The position numbers were made by a program, and so were the translations under genes. The notes beneath the pieces are model-generated. The model searched no databases, was not told the origin of the DNA, and worked only from the letters and a program-made list of their open reading frames with translations. Below are positions 6,532 through 63,058 of a stretch of DNA of 64,000 nt, piece by piece; the first letter of the stretch is position 1, and every line of letters begins with the position of its first letter. This DNA is from a virus. The DNA lies in the IMG/VR virus record IMGVR_UViG_3300047392_000164, positions 1 through 64,000 of that record, one strand, 5' to 3'.

Positions 6532-7583
6532 AAGTAGCAATCATTACGGATCAACACTTTGGCGCTCGTAACGATAGCGTTCAATGTCTTGACTACTACG
6601 AAAAATTCTACAGCACTGTCTTCTTTCCAAAACTAGAAGAAGCTGAAATCAAACATATTCTAATCCTTGGTGATACCTTCGATCGTCGTAAGTTTATTAA
6701 CTTCAACACTCTTGCTCGTGCTAAGAAGATGTTCTTTGATAAAGCATATGATGCTGGTATTCTAATCACCATGATTGCAGGTAACCACGACACCTACTAT
6801 AAGAACACTAACGAAGTCAACAGTCCTGAATTAACATTGAATAGTTATGATAACATTGTCATTGTTACAAGACCAGAAACCGTTAACGTTCATGGTGTTC
6901 CAGTATGTTTTCTCCCTTGGATTTGTGCAGACAACTACACAGACTCAATGAATGAGATTAAAAATACTAAAGCTGAAATTTGTATGGGCCACCTTGAAAT
7001 CTCAGGGTTCTCAATGTATCGAGGAGTTGAATCACATGATGGATTATCTAAAGAATCGTTTAGTAAATTTGATATGGTATTCTCAGGACACTATCATCAT
7101 AAGTCTGACAACGGTCATGTATATTATCTCGGCAATCCTTACGAACTAACATGGCAAGATTACAACGATCCACGAGGCTTTCACCTCTTTGATCTTGAAA
7201 CTCGTACACTTGAATTTGTACAGAATCCTTATAGCCTATTTGAAAGATTTGAATATGATGATGCATCCTTTGATCCTGACGGTATTGATACTAGTTTTGT
7301 CAGCGACAAGTACGTCAAAATTATTGTTATCAACAAGTCAGACCTCTACAAATTTGATAAGTTCATCACACGAGTATATACAAAAAATCCACTAGAGGTT
7401 AAAATCGTAGAGAACTTCTCTGAATTCAGTGAGGGTCAGGTTGACGAGTCTATCAACCTTGAGGACACACTAAGTGTTCTATCGAATTACATCGACTCTG
7501 TTGAAACAGAAGTTGATAAAGATAAAGTAAAGAGCTTCATGAAATTGTTGTACACTGAAGCTCTCAATAAGGAAGTTGTTTAA
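6528..7583 (+). CDS. gp47: Recombination endonuclease subunit, Mre11-like
   Basis: The 351-residue protein is a calcineurin-type nuclease matching T4 gp47 (339 aa). Metal-binding motifs appear in order: TDQHFG (D8, H10), GDTFDRR, GNHD, and GHYHH. With gp46 it forms the SbcCD/Mre11-Rad50-type complex that resects DNA ends for recombination and degrades host DNA. The stop shares a base with the gp46 start (TAATG). Confidence 0.95.
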   Translation: MKVAIITDQHFGARNDSVQCLDYYEKFYSTVFFPKLEEAEIKHILILGDTFDRRKFINFNTLARAKKMFFDKAYDAGILITMIAGNHDTYYKNTNEVNSPELTLNSYDNIVIVTRPETVNVHGVPVCFLPWICADNYTDSMNEIKNTKAEICMGHLEISGFSMYRGVESHDGLSKESFSKFDMVFSGHYHHKSDNGHVYYLGNPYELTWQDYNDPRGFHLFDLETRTLEFVQNPYSLFERFEYDDASFDPDGIDTSFVSDKYVKIIVINKSDLYKFDKFITRVYTKNPLEVKIVENFSEFSEGQVDESINLEDTLSVLSNYIDSVETEVDKDKVKSFMKLLYTEALNKEVV

Positions 7584-13968: not shown

Positions 13969-14633
13969 TGCAATTATCAAAAGAAACTCTCGCCCTGATC
14001 AAGAACTTTGCAGGTATCAACGGAAGCCTTATGCTTAAGCAAGGCAACAAGTTGGCTACTATCTCCGAAGGCAAGAACGTCATGGCTGAGGCAACTATCA
14101 CCGAAGAATTCCCAAGTGACTTCGGCATCTATGACTTGAACGAATTCCTAAGTTCATGCTCTCTATTCGACAATGCATCTATCGAATTCAAAGAAAAGTA
14201 TGCAGTGATTGCTGACTCAACTAATACGAACTCACGTATCAAGTTCTTCGCAGCAGGTGAAGGTGTTGTTAAAGCTGCACCAAGCACAATCAAGTTTCCA
14301 TCAGCCGATGTAACCTTTACACTTAACGCAACTCAACTTGCAATGATTCAACGTACCGCTGGTGCATTGAAGGCAGGTGATGTTACTATCGAAGGTGATG
14401 GTACAACGCTCAGCGTTACAGTTGCTGACAAGAAGAATGATACTTCCAACGCATACAACCATGTGCTTGGTGAAACAACTGAAACATTTAAGGCTCACCT
14501 CAAGATTGAAAACTTGAAGATGTTGCCAAATGACTATGTTGTTGAAATCTCCAAGAAGAAGATCTCTCGTTTCAAGCATACTGCTTCTGACTTGACATAC
14601 TACATCGCTGTTGAAGCTGACTCGGAGTTCTAA
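13968..14633 (+). CDS. gp45: Sliding clamp
   Basis: The 221-residue protein matches T4 gp45 (228 aa): MQLSKETLALIKNFAGINGSLML at the N terminus, GIYDLNEFL near residue 50, and a C terminus ASDLTYYIAVEADSEF like T4 YVVALEAD. The trimeric clamp tethers DNA polymerase and, with gp55, activates late promoters. Three proteins in this window end with clamp-binding-type SLExF peptides (gp55, gp43, C5-methyltransferase). Starts via TAATG overlap. Confidence 0.95.
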   Translation: MQLSKETLALIKNFAGINGSLMLKQGNKLATISEGKNVMAEATITEEFPSDFGIYDLNEFLSSCSLFDNASIEFKEKYAVIADSTNTNSRIKFFAAGEGVVKAAPSTIKFPSADVTFTLNATQLAMIQRTAGALKAGDVTIEGDGTTLSVTVADKKNDTSNAYNHVLGETTETFKAHLKIENLKMLPNDYVVEISKKKISRFKHTASDLTYYIAVEADSEF

Positions 14634-28115: not shown

Positions 28116-28551
28116 GTGGGGTAACCGTTATCTTTCTCTTGCTAAAGAAGTCTCTACTTGGAGTAAAGATCCTAGCAAAAAGATTGGTGCTGTTGCGGTA
28201 GGCGAAAAAGGTCAGATCCTTGCACAGGGTTACAATGGCTTTCCTCGTGGAATCCTCGACAGCGCTGATCGTTATAATGATCGTCCTACAAAGTATAAAT
28301 ACGTCGTTCACGCTGAAATGAATGTAATCTATAATGCTACATTCAATGGAGTTTCTCTCAATGGTGCACGTTTGTTTGTCTACGGATTGCCTGTTTGTTC
28401 TGAATGTGCAAAAGGAATTATCCAAGTAGGAATTCAAGCAGTGACTGTTTTCAGTGAAGACGAAGTCCCAGAAATCTGGACAGACTCTTGGGATACGACT
28501 CAAAATATGTTTAAAGAAGCTGGTGTAAGTGCACTTTGGATTAGGAAATAA
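28090..28551 (+). CDS. cd: dCMP deaminase
   Basis: A 153-residue zinc deaminase with the paired motifs HAEMN and PVCSECAK (Zn ligands His and two Cys, Glu as proton shuttle) and an N-terminal KKIGAVAV...GYNGFPRG segment. It converts dCMP to dUMP for thymidylate synthesis by ThyX. Shorter than T4 Cd (193 aa), lacking the T4 zinc insertion. The start overlaps gp42; ATG 28093 is an equally good start. Confidence 0.88.
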   Translation: MMLSTGLSEWGNRYLSLAKEVSTWSKDPSKKIGAVAVGEKGQILAQGYNGFPRGILDSADRYNDRPTKYKYVVHAEMNVIYNATFNGVSLNGARLFVYGLPVCSECAKGIIQVGIQAVTVFSEDEVPEIWTDSWDTTQNMFKEAGVSALWIRK

Positions 28552-28552
28552 A

Positions 28553-29758
28553 ATGAAAGTAGCTATTATCATGGGACGCGGCATTGAAGGTTGCGGCGTC
28601 ACAAAGTTTACAGTAGAACAAACTAAATGGTTGGCAAAGAATGGCCACGAGTTTATTGTGTTCTCCTCTAAGGATAAATCATGGACACGTAAGAATGCCC
28701 ACGATGTATCAAATGTCGTTCAATTGAAATTCGCTAAGGCTGAAGAAACTAATAAGATGATTGTTGGCTGCAATGAAGCCGATGTAGTTATCATTAATAG
28801 TCTTCCTTCGATTGGACATCCTGATGAATGTATTAACCAATTTAAGCGAGCGCTAAATGAAATCACAAAACCAGTCGTCCTCATCCAACACGATCACTCG
28901 TCCCACTCGATTCGTCGCAATGCTGCAATCGATGAGTCCATTAGAAAGGCTAGCATTCTTTTTGGCCATTCTTCTCGCAACGATTTCGCTAAGCACGTAT
29001 CTACGGTAACTGATGGTGGTGGACTTGCAGGATTCTTTGGCGAAGATAACTCAAAGACTATTCTGAATTTCCAACCAGGACTTGACTTTGATTCAGTACG
29101 TGCTAAGTATTGGAAACCTATTGAAGAACAGAATCCTATTATGAACAAATGGATTGGCCGCACCACTTCGTGGAAAGGCTATGTTCAGATGTTCAAGTTC
29201 CATAACGAATTCCTTCGTCCTAATGACTACATCACTACTTTTGAAGGTATTGAAAAGTCACCTGCATATCTTGGCTTCCGTGAACTATCAGAGTTTAATG
29301 GAATGATTGACCAAGACATTAATACTGTCACCCTTGAAAAGGACCAACCAGCATATGTCTTCGGACCTTTTATCAACGATCAAATGCTTGGCCGCATGGC
29401 TACTGTTGGATTTGGTTATCAACTTTCCGTTCTTGATGAGCGTTTTATTGAACGATCCATCGAGTATACTCATTGCGAAGTCGTTTGTTCCGGCGTAGTT
29501 CCAGTATTCCGCAAGTCTTATGGTGAACGTTGTACTCATCGTCACTTTGGTAAAAAGCTAATTGACTGTGAGAACACAGGTACTATTTGGCTTGATGATA
29601 ATGACATGCAGCCTGCTTTCGATCTGCTAAATAAGTTAGCCGCTGACCCAGTATTGCGCAATCAATACCGTGAACAGGCATATGAATTTTATAAACTACA
29701 CCAAGACTCTCAGTATACTTTTGCTGAGATGTTTGAACAGATTGAAAATAACTTATGA
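28553..29758 (+). CDS. agt: DNA alpha-glucosyltransferase
   Basis: The 401-residue GT-B enzyme closely matches T4 alpha-glucosyltransferase (400 aa): MGRGIEGCGVTKFTVEQ, QHDHSSHSIRRN, NKWIGRTTSWKGYVQMFKFH, a VGFGYQLS segment and an IEYTHCEV...VPVFRKSYGE nucleotide-binding region. It adds glucose from UDP-glucose to 5-hydroxymethylcytosine in DNA, protecting against restriction. It sits directly after gp42 and dCMP deaminase. AGGAAAT precedes ATG 28553. Whether glucose is the sugar is inferred from homology. Confidence 0.94.
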   Translation: MKVAIIMGRGIEGCGVTKFTVEQTKWLAKNGHEFIVFSSKDKSWTRKNAHDVSNVVQLKFAKAEETNKMIVGCNEADVVIINSLPSIGHPDECINQFKRALNEITKPVVLIQHDHSSHSIRRNAAIDESIRKASILFGHSSRNDFAKHVSTVTDGGGLAGFFGEDNSKTILNFQPGLDFDSVRAKYWKPIEEQNPIMNKWIGRTTSWKGYVQMFKFHNEFLRPNDYITTFEGIEKSPAYLGFRELSEFNGMIDQDINTVTLEKDQPAYVFGPFINDQMLGRMATVGFGYQLSVLDERFIERSIEYTHCEVVCSGVVPVFRKSYGERCTHRHFGKKLIDCENTGTIWLDDNDMQPAFDLLNKLAADPVLRNQYREQAYEFYKLHQDSQYTFAEMFEQIENNL

Positions 29759-30945
29759 GCTTAACACATGCTTTTATCGTACCTCTCATCGGTGGTCAAG
29801 TCCTGGGGCAGGAAGCTGCCTTTGGTTCAAAACCTGATTACATCTTATCATACACCCCTTTCTCAGGCAACGACGCACATATCATCAACCGCTTCCCGAA
29901 TAAGCCGTACATTCTTTTGGATCAAGGCGGCGTTCATCCTCATTACGTTGACGTCGTTGGTACTACTTGTCCTTGCGCTGGGCTCAGCTCTTTATCCCCT
30001 TCTGCAAATTCCGATGCATCCGTAAATGATTGGATGTACACTACGGCAACGTATGTACTAGAGAAGATGCAACCCAAAGTCTTTTGGGGAGAGAATGCAC
30101 CACGATTTGCTGGTGAAATGGGTCGACCAATCGTAGCAAACCTAATGAAGATTGCTAAGAAGAATGGTTACACTATGTCGATCTATCGTACTAAGTCTCT
30201 CCTTCATGGATTGAGCCAAGTACGTGAGCGATCATTCTACTTCTTTTGGAAAGGCGATAAAGTTCCTGTGTTCAACTACTTTGATCGTCAATATGAAACC
30301 ATTGAAGAGTTGCTAAGGAAAGTTCCAAAGGATGCAAGTCAGAACACTGTGACTAACGAGAAAATCCCATCCAAAGATGATCCATTTTATCGTTACATTC
30401 TAGAAGAAATGCATGGTGGAATTACTCACCAAGAGTTCTTCAGCAAGATTGAGAAGACAGTTGATACGATGTCTTACATTGAGAACAATGGTATCTCCTA
30501 TAAGACTGTCAAGCTTTGGATGGAGAAGAATGGCTACGAAAAGATTGCGTCTAAACTGGATGCTATCCAAGACAAGCTAGATGCAGGTGGAAACATTATG
30601 CGCCGTTACTCGGTAATTGGTAAGGGTTACACCGGTGCTTTTGTAGGTCATATGCCAATGATGTTGACTCATCCTGATGAAGATCGTTACATCACATACC
30701 GTGAAGCAATGAGTATCATGAAGTTGCCATACGACTTCGAGTTATTGAGTCCTAAGAAGAACTTGAACCATGTATGTCAGAACGTTCCTGTAACCACAGC
30801 AACAGACATGGCAATGGAAATTAAGGCGACTCTTGAAGGTCGTAGAGATATGATTAGTGCACCTCGTATCTATCAATTTAATGCTTCAAAGACTCAACGG
30901 ATTGAAGATGATGAACCTGCACAAAGTTTAGAATCATTCCTGTAA
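29755..30945 (+). CDS. DNA (cytosine-5) methyltransferase-like protein
   Basis: The 396-residue protein has the C5-methyltransferase motifs in order: an AdoMet loop IGGQVLGQEAAFG (I), CPCAGLS with catalytic C74 (IV), FWGENAPRF (ENV-type, VI), LSQVRERSFYFF (QxRxR, VIII), and a C-terminal region VIGKGYTGAFVGHMP (IX-X). All catalytic residues look intact. Motifs I-III are divergent. The C terminus QSLESFL is a clamp-binding-type peptide. It overlaps the glucosyltransferase stop (ATGA). In DNA already carrying hydroxymethylcytosine its target is puzzling; see findings. Confidence 0.85.
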   Translation: MSLTHAFIVPLIGGQVLGQEAAFGSKPDYILSYTPFSGNDAHIINRFPNKPYILLDQGGVHPHYVDVVGTTCPCAGLSSLSPSANSDASVNDWMYTTATYVLEKMQPKVFWGENAPRFAGEMGRPIVANLMKIAKKNGYTMSIYRTKSLLHGLSQVRERSFYFFWKGDKVPVFNYFDRQYETIEELLRKVPKDASQNTVTNEKIPSKDDPFYRYILEEMHGGITHQEFFSKIEKTVDTMSYIENNGISYKTVKLWMEKNGYEKIASKLDAIQDKLDAGGNIMRRYSVIGKGYTGAFVGHMPMMLTHPDEDRYITYREAMSIMKLPYDFELLSPKKNLNHVCQNVPVTTATDMAMEIKATLEGRRDMISAPRIYQFNASKTQRIEDDEPAQSLESFL

Positions 30946-50284: not shown

Positions 50285-51262
50285 ATGAAATCAGGTATAT
50301 TCATCGGGCGTTTTCAACCCGCCCACCAAGGCCACATCCACGCAATTGGAATCGCAGCATCCCAAGTAGACAAGCTCTACATCATAATCGGCTCAGCAAA
50401 TGCATGCCGATCAATTAAAAATCCATGGACATATCAAGAACGTGTTGATCGTCTGCGTGCTAAGTTGCATTCAGCTCGTGTCACCAATGTTGAATTCGTT
50501 CCATTGAATGATTACCCCTACAACAATACGCAATGGATTGCCGATGTTCGTGCAACGGCAGAACACCATGACATGGGTGTACCTACTCTGTTTGGACACA
50601 TGAAAGAAGGCAACGACTATCTTGGCTGGTTCCCAGATTGGAAGTTTCGCGATATCGAAGCTCAATATCAAATCCACGCAACATCAATTCGTAAACGTAT
50701 GTTTGAATTGAATGATCCCGACATGCCAAAGACTGTGCATGACGACTACAAATACTATCAAAAAGAAACGGCTACCTTTGCAAACTATCCCTTCCCAGAA
50801 ACTCTCAACTTCAACTGCGCAGATGCAGTTATTGAATGCCAAGGACATGTGCTCCTCATCCGACGTAAGTATGCGCCTGGGGCAGGAGCTTGGGCACTTC
50901 CAGGTGGGTTCAAAAACAGGGACGAAACATTTCTCGATTGCGCAGTACGAGAACTGCAAGAGGAAACCAACGTGCGAGTGCCTGAAAAAGTTCTTCGTGG
51001 ATCTATCGTAAAGACTCAACTTTTCGATTCTCCAAAACGTTCTTTTGGAATTCCACGTAACACTCTTGCTGTATACTTCCGCGTTAACCCTAACCCAGAT
51101 GGAAGTCTTCCACGTGCCAATGGCGCCGACGATGCAGCAGAATGCCAATGGTTTCCCTTGACAAAGGTATTGAATACTTTAGAACTATATGATGACCACG
51201 CTGCCATCATCTCAACAGTAACAGGCGTAGTACCTATGCCAGCATTTATCGGTGTACGATAA
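50285..51262 (+). CDS. nadM: Bifunctional NMN adenylyltransferase / Nudix hydrolase
   Basis: The 325-residue protein has two domains. Residues 1-165: FIGRFQPAHQGHIHAI with H14-Q-G-H17, and ATSIRKRMF (ISxxxxR) form an NMN adenylyltransferase. Residues about 180-325: a Nudix domain with GGFKNRDETFLDCAVRELQEETN split over the Nudix box (G5-E7-REUxEE). It makes NAD+ from NMN and ATP, and the Nudix part probably hydrolyses ADP-ribose or NAD derivatives. With the next gene it forms a two-step nicotinamide-to-NAD+ route. Confidence 0.93.
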   Translation: MKSGIFIGRFQPAHQGHIHAIGIAASQVDKLYIIIGSANACRSIKNPWTYQERVDRLRAKLHSARVTNVEFVPLNDYPYNNTQWIADVRATAEHHDMGVPTLFGHMKEGNDYLGWFPDWKFRDIEAQYQIHATSIRKRMFELNDPDMPKTVHDDYKYYQKETATFANYPFPETLNFNCADAVIECQGHVLLIRRKYAPGAGAWALPGGFKNRDETFLDCAVRELQEETNVRVPEKVLRGSIVKTQLFDSPKRSFGIPRNTLAVYFRVNPNPDGSLPRANGADDAAECQWFPLTKVLNTLELYDDHAAIISTVTGVVPMPAFIGVR

Positions 51263-51281
51263 TTCGCAAATAAGGTATAAT
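51253..51281 (+). promoter_or_regulatory. Early promoter for the nicotinamide phosphoribosyltransferase
   Basis: TGTACG (51253-51258), AATTCG (51261-51266), 17-base spacer, TATAAT (51276-51281), then a leader with AAGGAG. It overlaps the stop of the preceding gene. Confidence 0.85.
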
Positions 51282-51310
51282 TAATCATCAACAACGATAA
51301 GGAGCTTATC

Positions 51311-52708
51311 ATGAAACTTTCTAAAAACATCCTCTTGAACACTGATAGTTACAAAACTTCTATGTTCAAACAATATCCTGCCGGCACGACCGGTGTCTAT
51401 TCATACATCGAATCTCGTGGTGGTCGCTATGATTCCACTGTGATGTTCGGTCTTCAAGCGTTCATTAAGGAATACCTCCTTGACCCAATCACTCAAGCCG
51501 ACATTGATATTGCAGATGAAATACTTACTGCTCATGGAGAGCCCTTCAACCGAGAAGGATGGGAGTACATTCTACGCGTGCACAACGGCTACCTTCCAGT
51601 CGTTATCCGCGCTGTACCTGAAGGCACTGTGGTTCCTGTCAAAAATGTACTTGCGACAATTGAAAATACGGATCCAGCATGCTTTTGGCTGACAACCTAT
51701 TTAGAAACCGCATTGCTTCGTGCAGTATGGTATCCTACAACTGTAGCAACACAATCTTACACAATCAAGAAAGTTATTCTTGACTACTTGGAGCGAACTG
51801 GTGACCCTGCAACTATTGATTTTAAGCTTCACGACTTTGGTGCTCGCGGTGTGTCTAGCATGGAGTCTGCTGGGATTGGTGGAGCCGCTCACCTCGTCAA
51901 CTTTATGGGTACAGATACTATCACGGGTGTTTTATATGCTCGTGAGTATTACAACGCTGGCATTGCTGGTTTTTCTATCCCAGCAGCCGAACACAGCACT
52001 ATCACTTCTTGGGGCCGCGATAGCGAAGTAAAAGCTTATGAAAATATGCTCACTCAGTTTGCAAAGCCTGGTGCCATTCTTGCTATTGTTTCTGATTCTT
52101 ACGATATCTTTAATGCTGTCAGTAATTTGTGGGGCACCGAGCTTCGTGATCGAGTCATTGAATCTGGCGCAACTGTGGTTATTCGTCCTGATAGTGGGGA
52201 TCCTGTCGAAATCAACCGTAAGCTGATTGAGATCCTTGGTCAAAAGTTTGGTTTCACTGTGAATGCTAAAGGCTTCAAGGTTCTCAACAATGTACGACTC
52301 ATCCAAGGTGATGGTGTCAACGAATTGAGTATCCGTAGCATCCTCGGTGCCTTCATGGCGATGGGTTGGTCTGCTGATAACATTGCCTTTGGCATGGGTG
52401 GTGCACTGCTCCAACAAGTTGATCGTGATACTCAGAAGTTTGCCATGAAGTGTTCTGCTGCTCAAATCAATGGTGAATGGATTGACGTACAGAAAGATCC
52501 TGTCACTGATAGCGGTAAGAAATCTAAAGCGGGCCGTGTAACATTGTGGCAGTCAGGTGGAGAGTTTGCTTCTGGTGTAACACCACCTGCTGGTTGGACC
52601 GATAAAGGTTTCGGCGGATGGGTTGAAGCAATGCAAACTGTCTTCCGTGATGGTCAAATCATCCGTGAATACGACTTCGCTGAAGTTCGTGCTAACGCAG
52701 CAAAGTAA
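51311..52708 (+). CDS. nadV: Nicotinamide phosphoribosyltransferase
   Basis: The 465-residue protein is a NAMPT/NadV: NTDSYKTSMFKQYPAGTTGVYSYIESRGG, FKLHDFGARGVSS, a loop GFSIPAAEHSTITSWG with the phosphoribosyl-binding/active-site His region, VIRPDSGDPVE, and DGVNELSIRSIL. It converts nicotinamide and PRPP to NMN, which the preceding enzyme turns into NAD+. It has its own promoter and strong terminators, so the two genes can be tuned separately. Confidence 0.95.
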   Translation: MKLSKNILLNTDSYKTSMFKQYPAGTTGVYSYIESRGGRYDSTVMFGLQAFIKEYLLDPITQADIDIADEILTAHGEPFNREGWEYILRVHNGYLPVVIRAVPEGTVVPVKNVLATIENTDPACFWLTTYLETALLRAVWYPTTVATQSYTIKKVILDYLERTGDPATIDFKLHDFGARGVSSMESAGIGGAAHLVNFMGTDTITGVLYAREYYNAGIAGFSIPAAEHSTITSWGRDSEVKAYENMLTQFAKPGAILAIVSDSYDIFNAVSNLWGTELRDRVIESGATVVIRPDSGDPVEINRKLIEILGQKFGFTVNAKGFKVLNNVRLIQGDGVNELSIRSILGAFMAMGWSADNIAFGMGGALLQQVDRDTQKFAMKCSAAQINGEWIDVQKDPVTDSGKKSKAGRVTLWQSGGEFASGVTPPAGWTDKGFGGWVEAMQTVFRDGQIIREYDFAEVRANAAK

Positions 52709-52787: not shown

Positions 52788-53054
52788 ATGGGAACACAGA
52801 CAGACTACTTCAATCGCATTGGCTACAAGCATACATACGATCTTGGTGATCGTGTTGAAGGCAAGTGGAATAAGATTCCATTCGTTGGCAGTGTAGGTAA
52901 CGATAGACTTGTAAATGAAGATGATGGTCCTGAAATCACAATTCATTTAGATCTACCTATCATGTATAAAGGTACGATTCACCGCATCATCATTGTAAAA
53001 CACAAAGACATCAAACGCAGAAAAGAATACGTCTACCCTAAGGACAAGAAATGA
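52788..53054 (+). CDS. Small protein of unknown function, leaderless
   Basis: An 88-residue strand-rich protein (YDLGDRVEGKWNKIPFVGSVGNDRLV, DGPEITIHLDLPIMYKGTIHRIIIV) that could be a small beta barrel. It is the first gene of the RNA-ligase transcript and overlaps the ligase start by four bases. Its start codon coincides with the predicted transcription start. Not recognised. Confidence 0.65.
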   Translation: MGTQTDYFNRIGYKHTYDLGDRVEGKWNKIPFVGSVGNDRLVNEDDGPEITIHLDLPIMYKGTIHRIIIVKHKDIKRRKEYVYPKDKK

Positions 53055-53944
53055 ACAAAGAAGACTTGAAACAATTCGTAACAGATAACCCTCACTTGGT
53101 TTCAATGAAGCCATGCGGTGAAGGCATGTTCGTACTTAAGTATAAGAAGCGTGTTTTCTTTGACAACCTTTGGAACGACTTCTTAGAAGAATGTCGTGGT
53201 ACGATTGTTGATGCAGACTTTAACGTTGTATCTCGTCCATTCACTAAGATCTATAACTATGGTGTTGAAGAAAAAGCTCCAAAATTAGACAAGGACACTA
53301 AGGTAACTGCTTTCCGTAAGGTTAATGGTTTCATGTGTGCTATGACTTATTGTAATGGCAAGCTATTAGTGTCAACTACAGGTAGCACTGACAGTCCATA
53401 CGTTGCTATGGCTGAAGAACTTATGGGTGAAAATCGTTATAAGTTTGAAGACCATTGTGAGTTCTATCGTGACTTTACTTGGATGTTTGAGTGCGTTCAT
53501 CGTGACGACCCTCACATCATTCCTGAAAAAGAAGGACTGTATCTATTAGGGTGGCGCAAGAAGGAATGGGGTTCCCAAGTGGAATGCGAACCATTTGCGT
53601 TGGGCACACATACACAAGTTTTGGGCACACATCATATTGAAAGCACAACTACCAGTATGACACGTTTAGAACAAATGGCAAAAGAATGTAAGCATGAAGG
53701 TTATGTATTCTACACAGATGATGGTTTGTCCGCAAAGATTAAGAGTCCATATTACCTAACAAGTAAGTGGGTTGCTCGTAATCCTCGTACTGATAAAATC
53801 ATGAATTTGCAAGCTGACATTAAACAACATATCGATGAAGAATACTATCCATTGATTGATGCTATCCGTGAAAACATTGTGGAATACACAGCGTTGGATG
53901 AGCAAGGTCGATTGGCTTGGGTTCGTAACTTCTTGGACAAATGA
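53051..53944 (+). CDS. RNA ligase (Rnl1-like)
   Basis: The 297-residue protein has covalent nucleotidyltransferase motifs: FRKVNGFMCAM with K90-V-N-G93 as motif I (Asp of KxDG replaced by Asn, as in some RNA ligases), WMFECVHRDDPHII (IIIa), HEGYVFYTDDGLSAKIKSPYYLTSKW (IV-V). An upstream ECRGTIVDADFNVVSRPFTKIYNYGE-type segment is typical of RNA-ligase domains. It seals RNA nicks; next genes supply phosphatase-like and kinase activities. Confidence 0.88.
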   Translation: MNKEDLKQFVTDNPHLVSMKPCGEGMFVLKYKKRVFFDNLWNDFLEECRGTIVDADFNVVSRPFTKIYNYGVEEKAPKLDKDTKVTAFRKVNGFMCAMTYCNGKLLVSTTGSTDSPYVAMAEELMGENRYKFEDHCEFYRDFTWMFECVHRDDPHIIPEKEGLYLLGWRKKEWGSQVECEPFALGTHTQVLGTHHIESTTTSMTRLEQMAKECKHEGYVFYTDDGLSAKIKSPYYLTSKWVARNPRTDKIMNLQADIKQHIDEEYYPLIDAIRENIVEYTALDEQGRLAWVRNFLDK

Positions 53945-54168
53945 TGCACTTTAGCAATACCAATAACCCTATTGATTTTCCTAAGGATGATTTAGTGTAT
54001 CGTCTACGTAAGCGAGCAGAAATTCGTAGACAGATTCCTACTCGTAAGAGTGTCCAAGAAGGAACCCGCGATCGTATGGCAGATCTTCTTGATGAAGCTG
54101 CTGATGAAATTAACAGATTAGAACAAATGATTGCAGATTTAGTTGCTGCAAGATTGGAAAACATATGA
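53941..54168 (+). CDS. Small helical protein of unknown function
   Basis: A 75-residue charged helical protein (VYRLRKRAEIRRQIPTRKSVQEGTRDRMADLLDEAADEINRLEQMIADLVAARLENI). Arg/Asp-rich, with a C-terminal coiled coil. It sits between the RNA ligase and a metallophosphoesterase with four-base overlaps at both ends. Possibly an adaptor; not recognised. Confidence 0.65.
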   Translation: MMHFSNTNNPIDFPKDDLVYRLRKRAEIRRQIPTRKSVQEGTRDRMADLLDEAADEINRLEQMIADLVAARLENI

Positions 54169-54719
54169 CAGATTTTGTAACAAGTGACATTCACTTTGGT
54201 CATGCAAACATTATGAAATTTTGCCCTGAATCACGTGCGTTTAATAACGATGTGAGTAAGATGCATGAAGCTATTATCAAAAACTGGAATGCAGTCATTA
54301 CACCTCAAGATCACACTTACATCTTAGGTGATGTAGCATTCTGTAACTGGCAAGACGCAGTTAAGTTGTTGAATCGTTTAAATGGAACTAAGACTTTAGT
54401 CATTGGTAACCATGACAAGAAGTTGATGAATTCACAAGAATTCCGTGATTGTTTTGTTAGTTGTCAAGACTATATATCTATCACTGTAGATAAAACAAAA
54501 GTTGTGATGTTCCATTATCCTATTGCTGAATGGGATCAAATGCATCGTGGTGCTGTACATTTGTACGGTCACTTGCATGGTGGCGTCAGCGGCATGGAAA
54601 AGTATCGTTGTATGGATGTAGGTATGGACACTAACTACTGCCGTCCTTACAGATTGAGCGATGCAATTGCAAAGTGTTTAAAAGGTGACATCAAAGGTCA
54701 CCACCAAACTGGAGTTTAA
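54165..54719 (+). CDS. Calcineurin-like metallophosphoesterase
   Basis: The 184-residue protein has the complete motif series: TSDIHFGH (D8, H10), LGDVAFC, VIGNHDKK, VVMFHYP, YGHLHGG. Compact single-domain members act on nucleotide or phosphoprotein esters. It lies between the RNA ligase and a polynucleotide-kinase-like gene, so a 2',3'-phosphatase role in RNA repair is plausible but inferred. Confidence 0.88.
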   Translation: MTDFVTSDIHFGHANIMKFCPESRAFNNDVSKMHEAIIKNWNAVITPQDHTYILGDVAFCNWQDAVKLLNRLNGTKTLVIGNHDKKLMNSQEFRDCFVSCQDYISITVDKTKVVMFHYPIAEWDQMHRGAVHLYGHLHGGVSGMEKYRCMDVGMDTNYCRPYRLSDAIAKCLKGDIKGHHQTGV

Positions 54720-61820: not shown

Positions 61821-61909
61821 GGTGTGTGTTCCCTTCAGCGGTCTGTAAAATCGTTGTCTTAAATTTGAAGGGTGGCAGACAGATGGTTCGATTCCTTCAC
61901 ACACCACCA
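61821..61909 (+). tRNA. Abnormal tRNA-Tyr-like RNA (GTA)
   Basis: 89 bases with a perfect acceptor GGTGTGT/ACACACC, ACCA end and a T arm (GATGG-TTCGATT-CCTTC, one mismatch). The best anticodon arm, GCGGT-CTGTAAA-ATCGT, gives GTA, but it starts only 10 bases after the acceptor, leaving no D arm. Instead CCCTTCA (61831-61837) pairs perfectly with TGAAGGG (61866-61872) around the anticodon arm. Alternative pairings GTCTG/CAGAC exist. Function doubtful. Confidence 0.5.
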
Positions 61910-61914
61910 GTTTT

Positions 61915-61989
61915 GGGGACAGCTCAGGGGAGCGGCGGTGCCTTGCAAGTTCCGTGACTAGAAGGGTTCGATACCCTCGGTCTCCACCA
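61915..61989 (+). tRNA. tRNA-Ala (anticodon TGC)
   Basis: Anticodon loop CTTGCAA gives TGC. T arm AAGGG-TTCGATA-CCCTC-like, D stem GCTC/GAGC with a very short loop, acceptor GGGGACA/GGTCTCC with one mismatch, ACCA end encoded. Confidence 0.8.
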
Positions 61990-61995
61990 AGTTTT

Positions 61996-62089
61996 AGGAT
62001 GGTTGCAGCAAACAATACTTAAGGTTCGATTCCTTATTTTGCCACCAATACTCGGCAGAGTCGCTCAATGGAGAGCATCAACCCATCCT
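61996..62089 (+). tRNA. Candidate circularly permuted tRNA (3' half upstream of 5' half)
   Basis: 61996-62047 is a 3' half: T arm TAAGG-TTCGATT-CCTTA (62020-62036), acceptor strand TTTTGCC, ACCA. After six bases (62048-62053), 62054-62089 is a 5' half: acceptor GGCAGAG, TC, D arm GCTC-AATGGA-GAGC. GGCAGAG pairs with TTTTGCC at all seven positions (two G-U). The outer ends also pair: AGGATGGTTG (61996-62005) with CAACC-C-ATCCT (62079-62089, one bulge). No complete tRNA exists in the normal order. Alternatively these are leftovers of two deleted genes. The anticodon cannot be decided. Confidence 0.5.
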
Positions 62090-62101
62090 GTTGTATTTTA
62101 T

Positions 62102-62196: not shown

Positions 62197-62296
62197 GGGA
62201 AATGTGCGTAAGGTACGCAAAACAAAAGTATTCTGTAAAGAATATTTGCAGCATCAAATAAAACACTAGTTGGTTCGATTCCAGCATTTCCCGCCA
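62197..62296 (+). tRNA. Oversized tRNA-Tyr-like RNA (GTA)
   Basis: 100 bases. Perfect acceptor GGGAAAT/ATTTCCC, G73-CCA, T arm GTTGG-TTCGATT-CCAGC, D arm GCG-TAAGGTA-CGC. The anticodon hairpin AGTATTC-TGTAAA-GAATATT has seven pairs and a six-base loop reading GTA, and an outer GCAAA/TTTGC helix extends it, so about eight extra bases lie on each side. A long variable region follows. Probably Tyr, but the anticodon arm is abnormal. Confidence 0.55.
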
Positions 62297-62302
62297 AACA
62301 AT

Positions 62303-62497: not shown

Positions 62498-63058
62498 ATG
62501 TCACACGTCTTAGCTTTAGATGCATCAGGTTTGCCACGGAAGTGGATCAACTATGAAGATGCTATTACATACTTTGCAAAGGGAATGGTCGTCTGGTCAC
62601 TAGGTGAAACAGTCGCAACTTTCCATGGTGGAGTACAAAAGGACGGTGTGATGTCGATACTCGAAACACCTTCTATCATTGCTGTAAAAGGCAAAGGATT
62701 CAATCTTGAACGCGCTGGTAAGGTTATCTTGACAAACAAGACTTTGTTTGCTCGTGACCGACATGTATGTGCTTATTGCGGTGACAAATTTGCTAACTCT
62801 CATTTGTCTCGTGACCACGTACATCCAGTATCTCGTGGTGGTGAAAACACTTGGATGAACTGTGTAACAGCATGTATCAAGTGCAACACTCAAAAAGGTG
62901 CACGCACTCCAAAGGAATTTGGACATGACCTTTTGTATGTGCCATACGAACCTAACCATTTTGAAAACATGATTCTCCAGAATAGAAACATTCTGACAGA
63001 TCAAATGGAGTACTTGATGGGTGGAGTTCCAAAGCACTCACGTATTTTGATGAATTAG
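62498..63058 (+). CDS. HNH endonuclease
   Basis: The 186-residue protein has an HNH/McrA-type zinc domain at about residues 90-140: VCAYCGDKFANSHLSRDHVHPVSRGGENTWMNCVTACIKCNTQKG (two CxxC pairs, DH, N, and H-equivalent). N-terminal and C-terminal parts are extra. A free-standing nuclease within the tRNA array is typical of T4-like mobile insertions. AGGAG precedes the ATG. Confidence 0.92.
   Translation: MSHVLALDASGLPRKWINYEDAITYFAKGMVVWSLGETVATFHGGVQKDGVMSILETPSIIAVKGKGFNLERAGKVILTNKTLFARDRHVCAYCGDKFANSHLSRDHVHPVSRGGENTWMNCVTACIKCNTQKGARTPKEFGHDLLYVPYEPNHFENMILQNRNILTDQMEYLMGGVPKHSRILMN

Follow-up and report, generated by a model that had tools for sequence, protein, structure and literature searches.

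A circularly permuted tRNA-like element in a T4-like phage and the family of phage RNAs that shares its terminal helix

The closest described counterparts of the element reported here are the bacterial Y RNAs of the YrlA type, in which a basal stem binds Rsr and a tRNA-like domain resembles the D, T and acceptor arms; DusA and TruB modify YrlA, whose structure has been solved (PMC8394870). According to one proposal, the tRNA-like domain of YrlA inhibits an anticodon nuclease by competition (PMC7790460); phage tRNAs are able to counter tRNA-cutting defences (PMC13096335). Y RNAs are known in mycobacteriophages from work that is cited in PMC12282133, which also gives putative Y RNAs and an Rsr candidate in a Listeria phage. 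Phage tRNA clusters, for their part, are usually read as a supply of codons.

We analysed a stretch of 64,000 nucleotides from an IMG/VR virus record (IMGVR_UViG_3300047392_000164), called the window throughout, which is part of a T4-like phage with genes for gp23, a gp44-type clamp loader, UvsW, a family B polymerase and T4 RNase H. The 71,198-base contig holds 34 matches to the tRNA model at 61.5-70 kb. At window positions 61995-62090, read directly, a T arm, an acceptor 3′ strand and ACCA are followed by the acceptor 5′ strand and the D arm (Table 1). The earlier note on this DNA had described a 3′ tRNA half lying six bases upstream of a 5′ half, acceptor strands that pair over all seven positions, and outer ends that pair over ten positions with one bulge. 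Each of these observations stood, the outer helix being formed by 61996-62005 with 62079-62089 around one bulged C and lengthened by a U-G pair (61995/62090). The permuted arrangement, closed by a terminal helix, is confirmed as real, and RNA folding reproduces it (-27.0 kcal/mol against -19.0 +/- 2.9 for shuffles, z -2.8).

Table 1. Features of the permuted element and RNA repair candidates in the window
Feature	Position	Strand	Remark
Handle helix P1, 5′ strand (TAGGATGG)	61995..62002	+	Pairs with 62083-62090
Handle internal segment, TTG-CAGCAAA here	62003..62012	+	Family consensus TN-CAGCAA; CAGCA in 40/47 elements picked by P1 (many of their loci found with this motif)
TTGCAGCAAA		+	Directly 3′ of handle strand TAGGATGG; then linker, then T arm
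T arm, TAAGG-TTCGATT-CCTTA	62020..62036	+	From sequence; both-side changes among relatives
Acceptor stem 3′ strand, TTTTGCC	62037..62043	+	7/7 pairs with 62054-62060
ACCA	62044..62047	+	Kept in 9/10 short permuted relatives without anticodon arm
Spacer, ATACTC (6 nt), from CCA to acceptor 5′ strand	62048..62053	+	In relatives AAACTC, AACCTC, AAATCC
Acceptor stem 5′ strand, GGCAGAG	62054..62060	+	7/7 pairs, two of them G-U
D arm, GCTC-AATGGA-GAGC	62063..62076	+	Short loop with GG; short GG-bearing D loop also in relatives
Handle helix P1, 3′ strand (CCATCCTG)	62083..62090	+	G after CC-N in 481/487 GG-type elements
Conserved GTT(G/A), 3′ side of handle	62090..62093	+	T at next two positions in 442/481 and 438/481
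RNA ligase, T4 Rnl1 type, phrog_562	53051-53944
Phosphoesterase	54165-54719

Several other phages carry the same permuted element rather than a normal pair of tRNAs. One of them is the cultured Stenotrophomonas phage DLP_6 (L402), which has family copies at 14006-14100 and 6931-6988. A short subclass of ten copies without an anticodon arm comprises the window copy, DLP_6 and loci L013, L214, L219, L169, L153, L160, L095 and L211; in its alignment (A1), both partners have changed in 10 of 20 predicted pairs. A pattern search for further members of this ACCA-bearing subclass gave one new contig only, a chance coding match. The earlier note had considered debris of two truncated tRNAs and found it inadequate, and we rule it out because the relatives share the arrangement and their stems covary.

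The terminal helix is better understood as the handle of a family than as an extended anticodon stem, the role first ascribed to it, since it also caps elements that lack a tRNA body and others whose anticodon arm is complete. The helix of the handle has 8 bp (U N GG W U N N / N N A W CC N G); TNCAGCAA follows at a fixed distance on the 5′ side and GTT on the 3′ side. These ends were first met in 22 elements on 11 loci fetched solely for a related DNA ligase gene (the window's own contig counted), and three more units with them lie in the window's tRNA cluster (L001 8162, 8644 and 13095). In total, at least 404 distinct elements on at least 190 fetched loci carry the handle, including those from an IMG/VR motif scan; because the handle motif itself served to find many of the loci, motif counts are biased. 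Among 249 collected elements, selected without requiring pairing, Watson-Crick pairing is seen at P1 positions 5 and 6 in 242 and 237 cases (shuffle mean 78) and at position 3 in 239 (shuffle 143). The outermost N-N pair covaries (A-T 436, G-C 24 and T-A 10 among the matches listed). CAGCA lies exactly 9 nt past GG in 40 of 47 elements chosen by perfect P1 pairing alone, although many of their loci had originally been found with the CAGCA motif. We do not claim a pseudoknot of CAGCA with TGTTG, because the 3′ partner is inconsistently complementary and a G-U pair would be constant. A scan of 119 pattern matches in bacterial genomes gave no convincing handle element; those with a pairing 3′ partner resembled chance coding matches. 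In eleven loci scanned, Rfam at its cut-offs left the elements unrecognised.

The heads that the handle carries are exchangeable, ranging from an anticodon arm alone to an acceptor-less tRNA, a permuted tRNA body and longer RNAs. Among the matches listed, 192 distinct short elements (class A) consist of a hairpin only. The hairpin loop has 7 nt in 111 of these, with U33 in 99 and A37 in 97 of the 111, and by their sequence such hairpins are recognisable as anticodon arms of many anticodons. One pattern scan required the Thr anticodon arm, which was therefore selected by the scan and has an inflated count in this class. For the other 81 of 192 the best hairpin is without a 7-nt loop, which counts against the tRNA-mimic reading of the family given below. 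A further 29 of the matches listed (class C) comprise a D, an anticodon and a T arm joined to the handle instead of an acceptor. Five elements of classes A and C carry TTGACTTTTAATCAA, the exact sequence of the E. coli tRNA-Lys(UUU) anticodon arm.

Permuted tRNA bodies number 75 among the matches listed (class B); the anticodon arm is absent in some, as in the window, and in others it is placed between the handle and the T arm. The acceptor strands pair at 7 of 7 positions in 48 of 72 analysed permuted elements (67%), compared with 4.7% in controls made by swapping strands among elements, and the 72 contain 48 distinct acceptor 3′ strands. Outside the short ACCA-bearing subclass, most permuted bodies lack CCA and have the acceptor sealed by a tight loop (GCAT, TTCAT, ACAT, TTTT, TTCG, GTAA, GCAA or a GTTGGTC-type loop), and these relatives therefore cannot become amino-acid acceptors. 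The remaining class among the matches listed, 76 elements of at least 150 nt (class D), has heads that match nothing known where tested; mimicry leaves them unexplained, and they too count against that reading. RNAs of about 210-260 nt with the same or a closely similar handle were seen at L018 8894, L028 17549, L253 (minus strand, 5414), L085, L113, L197 and other loci, many of them with a conserved GGAAAGAC-type core. The L253 example gave no match to Rfam, even at E 5.

The reading we prefer, at a probability of roughly 0.6, is that the window element mimics tRNA in the manner of a Y RNA, probably serves as a decoy or tether, and is one copy of a phage RNA family built on the shared handle. 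From the sequence we infer that it would encode a small RNA transcribed with the phage tRNA cluster. This RNA would fold into a tRNA-like elbow, the T arm on the acceptor and the GG of the D arm facing the T loop, with the basal helix common to the family taking the place of the anticodon arm. The handle would stay constant and probably either serve as a protein-binding site or shield the ends, and the head would be an exchangeable piece of tRNA. Most likely, such heads would act as decoys or competitors against host proteins that bind or cut tRNA, such as anticodon nucleases and enzymes that read the elbow or the acceptor, and the mimic RNA would stay outside translation and would not be ligated into a tRNA. 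The window copy has ACCA and no anticodon. A pure decoy does not need ACCA, and its retention here and in the nearest relatives counts against the decoy reading.

The main rival for the window copy, drawn by analogy with permuted tmRNA, is an RNA in two pieces that resembles tRNA and has its CCA free, which we regard as unlikely. Permuted tmRNA works as two pieces without re-ligation. Here, RNase P would cut before GGCAGAG and 3′ processing would free ACCA, giving a chargeable RNA that lacks an anticodon, its pieces held together by the handle and acceptor helices and serving a use other than decoding or as bait for enzymes that read the acceptor. The retention of ACCA in nine of the ten short permuted relatives (the window and DLP_6 counted), the spacer of about 6 nt, and the fact that in DLP_6 a permuted tmRNA immediately precedes the tRNA cluster are consistent with this account. 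It fits poorly with the capped, CCA-free acceptors on most other permuted copies with the same handle, with the loss of CCA in L211, a close relative of the window copy, and with C3-G70 at the place of the tmRNA alanine signal G3-U70.

A true Y RNA, whose handle would bind host Rsr (Ro60) while the tRNA-like head linked it to PNPase or some other effector, is less probable again. The architecture is that of YrlA, and Y RNAs of mycobacteriophages, as cited in PMC12282133, and the putative Y RNAs and Rsr candidate of a Listeria phage given there offer precedents. The element was identified neither as a tRNA nor as a tmRNA: ARAGORN and the Rfam tRNA model made no call, the match to RF00005 was partial and under the gathering score (12.1 bits), and the tmRNA model gave no match. 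The best match in a sensitive Rfam search was YrlA (RF02553), over the full model length but below cut-off (18.7 bits, E 0.069). In relatives, the YrlA model scored up to 48.9 bits (17 phage records), against a curated cut-off of 69; the conserved YrlA loop is not in the handle; and no TROVE (PF05731)/Ro60 gene was found in 21 phage records, with the control genome of Deinobacterium positive. Given the stem motif, the score and the absence of a TROVE gene from those 21 records, we therefore describe a Y-RNA-like organisation rather than a YrlA RNA.

Two further explanations are far weaker than these. The hairpin could act in DNA, as a mobile cassette or homing target with the tRNA pieces as cargo; a cassette-like spread across the tRNA clusters of phages whose genomes differ greatly in size would suit this, as would an HNH endonuclease gene nearby, within the tRNA cluster (62498-63058). 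We consider it very improbable and favour a function in RNA because placement follows the tRNA strand, the loops are conserved as in RNA (T loop, D-loop GG and anticodon loops) and the acceptors are capped by tetraloops. Among the matches listed, 384 of 480 handle copies have an ARAGORN tRNA no more than 300 nt away, and 384 of 384 are on the tRNA strand, compared with 49% for random positions near a tRNA. The weakest candidate, scarcely credible in our view, is a functional circularly permuted tRNA gene whose ends phage RNA repair enzymes would cut and join at the anticodon: the permuted order, ACCA and an Rnl1-type RNA ligase speak for it, but the element has no 7-nt anticodon loop, its termini form the 8-bp handle helix, inspection of this helix found it continuous apart from one bulged C and without a bulge-helix-bulge motif, and the same helix persists on elements incapable of ever being tRNAs. 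What stood of the original proposal is the true circular permutation of the tRNA body, not the cut-and-joined gene, and with regard to the RNA repair candidates it named, the window holds an RNA ligase and a phosphoesterase (Table 1), whereas a polynucleotide kinase is unconfirmed.

The surrounding tRNA cluster has other unusual members. A Tyr-like (GUA) tRNA with CCA (61824-61909) has a 5′ CCCTTC that would pair with GAAGGGTGG in its variable region, in pseudoknot order, as if the variable arm supplied the D arm, and an Ala-like (UGC) tRNA (61916-61990) has CCA and a D loop of just AGGG. A second Tyr-like (GUA) unit (62197-62299) combines a D hairpin (TGCGTA-AGG-TACGCA), a 6-nt anticodon loop, a long variable region and a GCCA end. 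None of the three was called by ARAGORN, and pattern searches found no homologues of either Tyr-like unit. A tRNA with a CUA anticodon, of the amber suppressor type, lies in the same cluster (L001 10131-10205, contig 66131-66205), and the DLP_6 annotation likewise includes a CTA suppressor tRNA. NUDIX/cytidylyltransferase and nicotinamide phosphoribosyltransferase genes adjoin each other at 50285-52708, recalling phage pathways that rebuild NAD+, and a similar gene pair is found near the DLP_6 tRNA cluster. Adjoining genes for an alpha-glucosyltransferase and a C5-cytosine methylase (28529-30945) suggest a modified cytosine in the phage DNA.

Extended from the window copy to the whole family, the mimic reading becomes a modular decoy system in T4-kind and larger phages, a proposal that we advance tentatively and consider somewhat doubtful as a whole. 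One handle, bound by a protein, would present interchangeable tRNA parts (anticodon arms of many specificities, acceptor-less tRNAs and permuted bodies without an anticodon) and thereby neutralise defences of the host that attack tRNA. If phage tRNA clusters also hold hundreds of mimics that annotation skips, part of their role would be to intercept proteins that handle or cut tRNA. The handle with a 17-nt anticodon arm would offer concrete, cheap constructs to assay against known tRNA-targeting defences. Our literature search covered open-access PubMed Central and returned no paper on permuted tRNA genes in phages and none on the handle family, of which an earlier description may exist elsewhere. 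The handle RNA family is apparently undescribed so far, and its range of heads is unusually broad.

Among known systems, the permuted tRNA genes of algae and archaea share the order of the halves and a short intervening sequence at the acceptor end, but they have a complete anticodon arm and a bulge-helix-bulge junction and yield a normal tRNA (PMC3978253), whereas the window element has neither arm nor junction. T4 species 1 and 2 RNAs (rnaC and rnaD) are also stable RNAs in a phage tRNA cluster, and rnaC has a T arm. In T4 (AF158101, L282; 1409-1672) this arm reads CCGGG TTCGAAT CCCGG, and rnaD has a T-loop-like hairpin; both may be tRNA mimics, and we dropped them as relatives on seeing no handle in either. 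An HDV-like or other self-cleaving ribozyme was likewise rejected, the strand order being similar but an extra helix and the catalytic strand missing. Permuted tmRNA (RF04321/RF01850) has the same succession of T arm, acceptor, CCA, short intervening sequence, acceptor 5′ strand and D region; the window element differs in having no tag reading frame and no G3-U70 and in being much shorter, and the tmRNA model that misses it detects the tmRNA of DLP_6. The latter (KU682439.2, 5182-5403; RF04321, 136.8 bits, cut-off 47) has no annotated feature over it in the deposited record. YrlA is nearest: it too is modular, a stem plus a head, and in it, as in the permuted handle elements, a terminal stem leads into a T arm, a closed acceptor arm and a D arm and replaces the anticodon arm. 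The two differ in the stem, where the Rfam consensus loop is AUGC / AcUuG and the handle reads TNCAGCAA / GTT, and in what it bears, since the handle also carries anticodon arms, acceptor-less tRNAs and long RNAs; with this family, the bacterial Y RNAs would become a modular class of much wider scope.
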